A stretch of 64,000 nucleotides of DNA from contig MNVE01000003.1 of NCBI GenBank assembly GCA_001871475.1, forward strand, positions 37,837 through 101,836, read 5' to 3'. Shown here piece by piece: positions 2,737 through 5,472 of the stretch. This stretch comes from Candidatus Micrarchaeota archaeon CG1_02_47_40 (GTDB lineage Archaea > Micrarchaeota > Micrarchaeia > Anstonellales > CG1-02-47-40). The notes below the pieces were generated by a model, which saw only the letters and a program-made list of their open reading frames with translations, searched no databases and was not told the DNA's origin. A program made the translations under genes and the position numbers. Positions within the stretch are counted from its first letter, which is position 1; every line of letters begins with the position of its first letter.

Positions 2737-5472
2737 ATGGATGACAAAAGCAAGGAAACATACAAGCTCAAGAAGCAGCTGCGCGAGCTTGCGCACCATT
2801 CAGGCGGCAGCACCGAGATGATTTCGGTTTACATCCCGCCAGGCTATCCCATATACGAGACTTCAAACAAATTAAAGACAGAGCTGGGGCAGGCATCAAA
2901 CATAAAATCAAAGGGCACGAGGAAAAATGTCACCGATTCGCTTGCAAAAATAATAAATTATCTGAAAATGTTTCGAGAAACCCCAAAAAACGGCATTGCG
3001 ATATTCTGCGGAAACATCTCAAGCAACCCCGCCAAAACCGACATAGAGCTTTTTTCCATGTCCCCACCCGAACCCTTAAATATACAAATTTACCGCTGCG
3101 ATTCCGCATTCTTTCTGGATCCGATAAGGGATTTGGTTGAGGTGAAGGATACTTACGGAATAGTTGTGCTGGATGGGCGGGAGGCGACGATTGCAACCGT
3201 GAAGGGGAAGTCCATAATCATACTGAAAAGGCTCAACTCAATGGCGCATGCAAAAATAAGGAAAGGGGGGCAGTGCCTTGCGCCAGACACTTTAATACAG
3301 CTTGCAAGCGGCGAACTTTCCCACATTTCCGAAGCACATGCCGGCTCCCTGATAAAGGCGGCAAACCTTCAGGATTTCACATCCACTGATTCATTGTGCT
3401 CCGACAAATTCACAACGAAGGCGAAAAATGCCTACAAAATAGTGGTTCATGCCCCGAGGATGGAAATAGAAGCGACCGCATGGCACCGCTTTTTTACTAT
3501 AACTGAAAACGGAGTGAAGGAAACGTTTGCAAAAGACCTGAAAAGAGGGGACAGGATGCTTATTGCAAGAAAATTAAACCATTCCGGAGCAGAAGTGAAA
3601 ACAGAATTCAAACCTTCCTATCGCATGGTTTTAGGGGAAAATGAATTCCTAAAATTGCAGGGAAGAAGAAAAGAGCTTAAATGGCCGCAGAGTTTAGTGG
3701 CAAAAAAACTCGGCATAACTCAAATGGCAGTTTGCAGGATGGAGCGGGGCGAAATTCCGCTTTCTGCAGGCAAGATACGGGAGCTGTACAAACTTTACGG
3801 GCTGTTCCTTGATGAAAAAAGTTTCAGAGTGCCTTCCGTAAGCCTGCCAGAGTGCTACACCGCGAACCTCTCCTACCTTCTTGGGGTTATTGCAGGCGAC
3901 GGCACGCTTGACGGGAACAGAATCATAATTTATGAAAGCTACTCCGAGCTTGCGGAAAAATATGCCCGCATTGCCAAGGAAACGCTCGGGCTTGAGGCAG
4001 TATTGCGCAAGGTGGATAAAACAGGGCAAAAAGGCAGTTTTGCGAAAAAAGAGTATTACGAAATCCGCCTCTACAGCAAAGACTTCGCAGAGTTTGTAAA
4101 TTCAGAAATCTCCCAAACAATCTCCTCTTCGGATATAAGATGCGTTCCTTTGCAGATACAAAAGTCCCCTCTAAACGTCCAGGCATCTTTTCTTTCAGGG
4201 CTCTATGATGCCGAAGGATACATTCACGGAAAACGTGTTGAGATTGCAATGCGCTCAAGGGAAATGATGCGCCAGCTGCAGGCAATGCTCCTTCGCTTCG
4301 GCATCTGTGCATCATATGGGGAAAAGGCGGTGAAGGGAAACCCGCAATGGTTCGTCAGCATAAGCGACCTGCAATCCCTTAAGAATTTTGAAACGAGCAT
4401 AGGGTTTTCGAGGGAGGACAAGAAAAACGCGCTTCGAAGAATTGCATCCAGGCGCATGAAGATGCAATTCGTTGATCAGGTGCCTGTTGATGGCAGGGAG
4501 GTTTTCAAATTCGTAAAAACGCTTGGCTTAAAGACAAGCGATTTTCATGCCGCAAGCGATTTTTTCAGGAACAAAAAGCCACTTGGAAGGGAAGCATTCA
4601 TAAAAAATATCAGGGGGGTTCTCCTTCAAAGGGCAGAGCGCCTCGGGCAGAAAAAACTGGCGGAAAAAATGCTTGCAAAGTGGCTGCCGGAACACATAGG
4701 AGTGGCAAAAGTATCAGAGAAAATTCCGATATGCACGGAGAGAAAATATTTTGACCTGACCGTTCCAAACACTTTCAATTTTGTCGCAAACGGCTTCATA
4801 GTCCACAACAGCGCCCGCAGATTTGAGCGCCTGATAGAAGAAAGCATAGAAAAATATTACAAGCGCATCGGGGAAGCGATGGATACCTATTTTCTTACGG
4901 GAATAAAGGGAGTGGTGGTGGGCGGTCCCGGGCCTGCAAAAGAGTTTTTCATGCAGGCAAAGCCCTTCAACTACCAGATAAAGGTGCTTGGGGTTGTTGA
5001 CACCGGCTACACCGACGAATACGGAGTCCGGGAAACCCTGACAAAAAGCTCCGAGCTGATACAGGGGCAGGAACTGCTTGAGGAGAAGAAAATAATAGAC
5101 TCCTTCCTGAAGGAAGTGGCGCACGGAGGGCTTGCAATATATGGAGAGAAAGATGTAAGGGAAGCAATGGAAAGAAAAGCAATCAAGACTCTCATGGTTT
5201 CGGAAGGGCTGCATTACGTGCGCGCAAAATTGATGAATTCAGCAGGGGAGGAAAAATGGGTGAATGCGCGCGACGAGGAGGAACTGGCAGAGAAAGCCGA
5301 GGCGGAAAAAGGCTTCAAAATAATGGAGAAAAAAGCGCTTCTTGACGATTTGGTTGATTTGGCGGAAGACAAGGGGATTGAGGTGAAAATAATCTCAAAC
5401 GAAACGGAGGAAGGGGCGCAGTTTTTGCAGTCTTTCTACGGAATAGGCGCGTTTTTGCATTATCGAAAGTAG
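2737..5472 (+). CDS. prf1: Peptide chain release factor aRF1 with in-frame intein
   Basis: This is class 1 archaeal translation termination factor. It reads stop codons through NIKS (residues 55-58) and triggers peptidyl-tRNA hydrolysis through GGQ (residues 177-179). The host protein is split: residues 1-179 end exactly in GGQ, then a 512-residue intein, then SARRFERLIEE..., the normal continuation of the GGQ loop. Removing the intein leaves 399 residues, the usual archaeal aRF1 length. The C-terminal domain (VLGVVDTGYTDEYGVRE) is intact. As the factor is expected to be essential, splicing must presumably work. The last codons are part of a 32-bp tandem repeat running past the stop. Confidence 0.95.
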   Translation: MDDKSKETYKLKKQLRELAHHSGGSTEMISVYIPPGYPIYETSNKLKTELGQASNIKSKGTRKNVTDSLAKIINYLKMFRETPKNGIAIFCGNISSNPAKTDIELFSMSPPEPLNIQIYRCDSAFFLDPIRDLVEVKDTYGIVVLDGREATIATVKGKSIIILKRLNSMAHAKIRKGGQCLAPDTLIQLASGELSHISEAHAGSLIKAANLQDFTSTDSLCSDKFTTKAKNAYKIVVHAPRMEIEATAWHRFFTITENGVKETFAKDLKRGDRMLIARKLNHSGAEVKTEFKPSYRMVLGENEFLKLQGRRKELKWPQSLVAKKLGITQMAVCRMERGEIPLSAGKIRELYKLYGLFLDEKSFRVPSVSLPECYTANLSYLLGVIAGDGTLDGNRIIIYESYSELAEKYARIAKETLGLEAVLRKVDKTGQKGSFAKKEYYEIRLYSKDFAEFVNSEISQTISSSDIRCVPLQIQKSPLNVQASFLSGLYDAEGYIHGKRVEIAMRSREMMRQLQAMLLRFGICASYGEKAVKGNPQWFVSISDLQSLKNFETSIGFSREDKKNALRRIASRRMKMQFVDQVPVDGREVFKFVKTLGLKTSDFHAASDFFRNKKPLGREAFIKNIRGVLLQRAERLGQKKLAEKMLAKWLPEHIGVAKVSEKIPICTERKYFDLTVPNTFNFVANGFIVHNSARRFERLIEESIEKYYKRIGEAMDTYFLTGIKGVVVGGPGPAKEFFMQAKPFNYQIKVLGVVDTGYTDEYGVRETLTKSSELIQGQELLEEKKIIDSFLKEVAHGGLAIYGEKDVREAMERKAIKTLMVSEGLHYVRAKLMNSAGEEKWVNARDEEELAEKAEAEKGFKIMEKKALLDDLVDLAEDKGIEVKIISNETEEGAQFLQSFYGIGAFLHYRK
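3274..4809 (+). mobile_element. Intein in aRF1 with LAGLIDADG endonuclease and an HTH insert
   Basis: The intein begins at Cys180 (CLAPDTLIQLASG, block A) and ends with FNFVANGFIVHN (blocks F and G) before extein Ser692. Block B is seen in ATAWHRFFTI. Two LAGLIDADG motifs, LLGVIAGDGTL near residue 381 and LSGLYDAEGYI near 486, mark a homing endonuclease, both with the acidic residue kept. Between block B and the endonuclease, around residues 306-345, lies a XRE/Cro-like helix-turn-helix (WPQSLVAKKLGITQMAVCRM). Splicing residues Cys1, penultimate His, terminal Asn and Ser+1 are all present, so it should be active. Boundaries are exact at codon level. Confidence 0.95.

Follow-up and report, generated by a model that had tools for sequence, protein, structure and literature searches.

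The aRF1 gene of Candidatus Micrarchaeota archaeon CG1_02_47_40, which lies in the window studied here (the whole stretch of 64,000 nucleotides that was analysed), carries a 512-residue insert directly after its catalytic GGQ tripeptide, and this raises the question of whether the insert is a mobile element tolerated by its host or a device by which the host controls translation termination. The gene occupies positions 2737-5472 of the forward strand, on which all features of the gene described below are also encoded, and forms a single uninterrupted frame of 911 amino acids without internal stops. The TIGR03676 model (aRF1_eRF1) matched the precursor with 401.6 bits (cut-off 234.7) in two stretches, the first of which covered model positions 1-174, and both NIKS and GGQ were read in the sequence, identifying the host protein as a class 1 release factor. 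Its TAG stop codon was considered as a possible special feature and rejected, given that TAG also ends 11 of the 42 long ORFs in the window.

The N-extein (2737-3273) comprises domain 1, which recognises stop codons and contains NIKS (Pfam eRF1_1), and the start of domain 2 through GGQ, i.e., Gly177-Gly178-Gln179 at 3265-3273. The C-extein (4810-5469) holds the remainder of domain 2 together with domain 3 (Pfam eRF1_2 and eRF1_3; PDB 4af1, E 2.2e-23). Between them lies the intein (3274-4809), and the codons at the two junctions are CAG (Gln179, 3271-3273) and TGC (Cys1, 3274-3276) on one side, and AAC (Asn512, 4807-4809) and AGC (Ser+1, 4810-4812) on the other. An earlier note on this DNA, made from the sequence alone, had placed an intein right after Gln179, and its boundaries proved exact to the codon; the spliced product of 399 residues that it expected equals the length computed here for the predicted aRF1.

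Domain searches of the insert returned Intein_splicing (61 bits), LAGLIDADG_3 (81 bits) and HTH_3 (24.5 bits), with the helix-turn-helix domain (3655-3804; Pfam HTH_3/HTH_31, present in 12 of 16 members) located after the N-terminal splicing part and ahead of the endonuclease. The residue set of a class 1 intein is complete. It consists of the N-terminal nucleophile Cys1, the block B TxxH motif (Thr68-Ala-Trp-His71, 3475-3486), the block G pair His511-Asn512 (4804-4809) and, as second nucleophile, the host Ser+1, which becomes Ser180 of spliced aRF1; Asp494 of block F (4753-4755) is also present. Cys1, Asp494, His511 and Asn512 were invariant in alignments of both 16 and 19 homologues; His71 was likewise invariant, and Thr68 was invariant in the former alignment and conserved in at least 90% of the latter. 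The two LAGLIDADG motifs, YLLGVIAGDG (3874-3903, acid Asp209) and FLSGLYDAEG (4189-4218, acid Glu314), were recognised from the sequence and by Pfam, and each closes on an acid before Gly (GDG and DAEG), as in homing endonucleases. The domain scores, splicing residues and homologues thus bear out the identification of the insert as an intein, and the presence of all splicing residues, another point of the earlier note, extends to their conservation in the homologues.

An AlphaFold2 model of the intein built with 16 homologues was of high confidence (pLDDT 92, pTM 0.89), and a Foldseek search with it gave the TliVMA and PhoVMA inteins and PI-PfuI as the best solved matches, indicating a Hint fold. 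When the entire precursor was modelled (mean pLDDT 85, pTM 0.58), the individual parts came out well and the joints at residues 171-177 and 694-699 were loose, so that the intein hangs by flexible links from the tip of this loop of GGQ. Comparison of this model with the PDB returned both intein structures and the archaeal aRF1 4af1, the alignment of the latter spanning the insert. Release of peptides by the unspliced precursor appears unlikely from this model, since the 512 residues of the intein occupy the place at which GGQ has to enter the catalytic centre of the ribosome. That unspliced aRF1 should not terminate translation, as had been proposed earlier, is therefore a sound expectation.

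A genome-wide search (1.15 Mb, 93% complete, 16 contigs) found no second aRF1, intein-free or otherwise, an intein-free copy being one of the findings that the earlier note had named as speaking against it; the one other match to an eRF1 domain was a pelota-like protein of 355 amino acids. Further LAGLIDADG insertions were observed in this genome (contigs C15, C1, C11 and C6; loci L047, L048, L050 and L051), in aIF5B/IF-2, V-ATPase subunit A, CDC48 and RtcB. The insertion in aIF5B/IF-2 follows the GHVDHGK P-loop, so that an initiation factor and the termination factor are alike interrupted by inteins. Contig C11 also contains a LAGLIDADG-like ORF of 224 amino acids (C11:249557-250162; L049:1438-2109) that matched no NCBIfam family and is perhaps a free-standing homing endonuclease.

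The same insertion site was then found well beyond this genome, with aRF1 inteins at the identical post-GGQ position in at least 50 genomes of three archaeal phyla. Within Candidatus Micrarchaeota, 17 of 301 genomes, belonging to eight families, carry an aRF1 intein at exactly that point. Of 19 genomes in a second phylum, five share the junction, as do at least 28 of the 279 that were sampled from a third, these two counts resting on similarity to the aRF1 inteins already found here, a detection that unrelated or very short inteins could escape, and the 28 including two genomes (G459 and G572) in which the gene is incomplete or split across contigs. The short aRF1 of the third phylum suggests that it may be Woesearchaeota-like DPANN. 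Among 77 other archaea searched, one of which lacked any aRF1 match, no such split of aRF1 was detected. The junction itself, GGQ/C at the start and HN/S at the end of the intein, was repeated in 49 other genomes, of which 47 have GGQ and two have GGW, and so exact a recurrence means that the insert is not due to chance. A naturally split intein in G572 was considered and rejected, as each half stops at a contig end. In three further genomes (G075, G181 and G282; L095, L096 and L097), contig ends break aRF1 within a few codons of GGQ/S; a population with mixed intein-plus and intein-minus alleles could break the assemblies at this place. No viral or plasmid carrier emerged: the viral_contigs set contained no relative of the intein, and its phage and plasmid matches were partial and approximately 22-30% identical.

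The two GGW genomes (G438, L159; G464, L165) come from two genera of one family, and their aRF1 has GGW for GGQ directly ahead of the intein, the Trp codon being TGG as read in G438; NIKD replaces NIKS in both. In the 972 kb of G464 that were read, no aRF1 other than the GGW one was found, even with GGQ-type aRF1 probes of the same phylum, in a search in which a pelota probe meant as positive control also gave no match. A variant genetic code in this genome was rejected, since long ORFs there end in each of the three stop codons, mostly in TAA. These proteins call into question how strict the need for GGQ is.

Every stage of a homing cycle is represented in the set: close relatives with an empty site, full inteins, a decayed endonuclease and mini-inteins. 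Empty GGQS sites occur in G001, a sister of the window's genome within its family, in G276 and in others, as befits an in-frame insertion. The G078 intein has lost its two catalytic acids (GDG to GGG, DAEG to DARG) and kept the splicing residues, which are also kept in the two mini-inteins, of 142 amino acids (G097) and 157 amino acids (G295). All other full-length copies retain both endonuclease acids. Ten columns (C1, G13, T68, H71, F74, E83, D494, F503, H511 and N512), all in the splicing halves, were invariant among the 16 homologues, and eight of these remained so across 19 homologues from the three phyla. Within the close group of the window's intein, conservation was 0.61-0.66 for the endonuclease versus 0.61-0.66 for the splicing part, and most nucleotide differences affected the third position of a codon, which is what continuing selection on the endonuclease would produce.

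On a tree of 67 aRF1 sequences, 16 label changes were required for the 17 carriers and shuffled labels needed no more, in a sample to which empty sisters had been added on purpose, so that 16 is not an unbiased rate. The nearest pair that differs in occupancy, G278 (intein) and G276 (empty), has exteins that are 93% identical. Between the window's intein and that of G039, a member of another family (f5), identity is 67%, versus 59% for the exteins; the inteins are likewise more alike than the exteins in comparisons of the window's genome with G059 and G044, and elsewhere in the set the inteins diverge faster than the exteins. Approximately unbiased tests on the extein data rejected the groupings of the intein tree (p 4e-5, 0.007 and 0.012), whereas those on the intein data rejected host-like groupings only in part (p 0.06, 0.22, 0.10 and 0.04). 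Taken together, these sequence comparisons give good support to horizontal movement of the aRF1 intein across the set; its transfer into the window's own lineage is likely, though not proven, and is graded no higher because the intein-side tests were mixed.

In our view, the insert is very probably a full-length class 1 intein with a LAGLIDADG homing endonuclease, a selfish element at the codon boundary after GGQ of the single aRF1 gene that is predicted both to splice and to cut. Its anatomy, exact recurrence, residue conservation, scattered presence, and decayed and mini forms are directly established; from these we infer splicing by the intein, cutting by the endonuclease and inactivity of the precursor. 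The chemistry of class 1 splicing is standard. Cys1 would attack the Gln179-Cys1 bond, the N-extein would pass to host Ser180 and Asn512 would then cyclise, the expected outcome being a 399-residue aRF1 with an intact GGQ-S sequence. The freed intein could then cut empty aRF1 alleles, and repair would copy it in. GGQS was invariant in all 67 aligned relatives, and the host thereby offers an invariant Ser at the +1 position. An invariant GGQS hinders both escape mutation and imprecise loss; persistence of the intein can accordingly be ascribed to its sitting in one of the least changeable stretches of a protein that the cell needs. Inteins are known to favour conserved and catalytic positions (PMC2814812), and this site agrees with that.

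Might the host nevertheless have put the intein to use? If it had been co-opted as a regulator, splicing would respond to some condition or to the state of translation and so control active aRF1 and termination. Conditional splicing is on record for RadA and other inteins (PMC5790916), the position beside a catalytic residue makes splicing all-or-none for activity, and two lineages retain mini-inteins that are unable to home by themselves. We nonetheless regard co-option as very unlikely: turnover on the aRF1 tree is scattered and near-maximal, the endonuclease acids are retained in the full-length copies with one decayed exception, and an unsystematic look at the ORF noticed no additional conserved cis element. 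An insert that is scattered and absent from near relatives is distributed like a mobile element, not like a control on which the host depends. Co-option is the strongest form of the earlier suggestion that splicing feeds back on termination, which has gained no positive evidence and has the patchy distribution against it; the gene shows neither a frameshift nor an in-frame stop such as RF2 autoregulation employs, and with the C-terminal junction 220 codons ahead of the stop, splicing could start before termination. A narrower possibility, that in some lineages slow or conditional splicing sets the pool of active release factor and hence stop-codon readthrough, is very improbable too, though least so in the mini-intein carriers. 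On-off occupancy in three phyla is the mark of a wandering genetic parasite rather than of a demonstrated regulatory switch.

A defective intein, with aRF1 supplied otherwise or dispensable, would be in keeping with the score of the N-terminal intein model TIGR01445, which at 19.4 bits falls under its cut-off of 24.5; yet the splicing residues are invariant in all homologues, both exteins are intact and conserved, mini-inteins are retained and the search for another aRF1 came back empty, and we give this reading scant credence. Even less credible is an assembly chimera or annotation artefact. Although the assembly consists of 16 contigs, the junction recurs to the residue in the 49 other genomes, in some cases on very long contigs (829 kb for G479:C1 and 1.18 Mb for G089:C1). 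The selfish, splicing intein is therefore the reading we retain.

The earlier note had proposed a search for intein sites in aRF1 and eRF1, and the outcome was divided: genomes of three phyla contain the site, and the full-text literature and intein surveys searched, a scope lying outside InBase and most subscription literature, made no mention of an aRF1 or eRF1 intein. NCBIfam includes models for RtcB, GyrA and other proteins that bear inteins, and a search of the precursor against it brought up none for aRF1. Within that part of the literature, the GGQ site of aRF1 is apparently unreported as an intein site; the novelty lies in host and site, the class of object being well known. The only stop-codon release factor, broken next to the residue of peptide release, thus joins the proteins colonised by inteins. 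The series of empty, active, decayed and mini forms across three archaeal phyla offers a test set for how inteins persist in a translation factor that cells cannot do without, and allows one to ask if delayed splicing alters termination.

Compared with known inteins, those in aIF5B/IF-2, V-ATPase subunit A, CDC48 and RtcB of the same genome are similar in being LAGLIDADG inteins in housekeeping hosts, but they match the aRF1-intein profile only partially (21-125 bits), so that the aRF1 intein is no recent copy of any of them. A glmS-type intein (G383, L125), from what is presumably a Methanocaldococcus-type organism, matches this profile over its full length with 300-320 bits, well under the 380-777 bits of full-length homologues at the aRF1 site, and its host, as read from the sequence, is glmS (glutamine-fructose-6-phosphate transaminase) instead of aRF1. 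Together with the related loci L161-L164, it is among the closest non-aRF1 inteins by profile. PI-PfuI (PDB 1dq3), whose host we take to be ribonucleotide reductase, is the top PDB sequence match (E 7.7e-12), albeit at low identity. The TliVMA and PhoVMA inteins of archaeal V-ATPase subunit A (PDB 7qss and 7qst) share the Hint fold with a nested LAGLIDADG endonuclease and head the Foldseek matches (E 2.1e-26 for 7qss), but differ in host and site and are 18% identical across the structural match. Archaeal VMA inteins likewise occupy a catalytic site of their host (PMC2814812).
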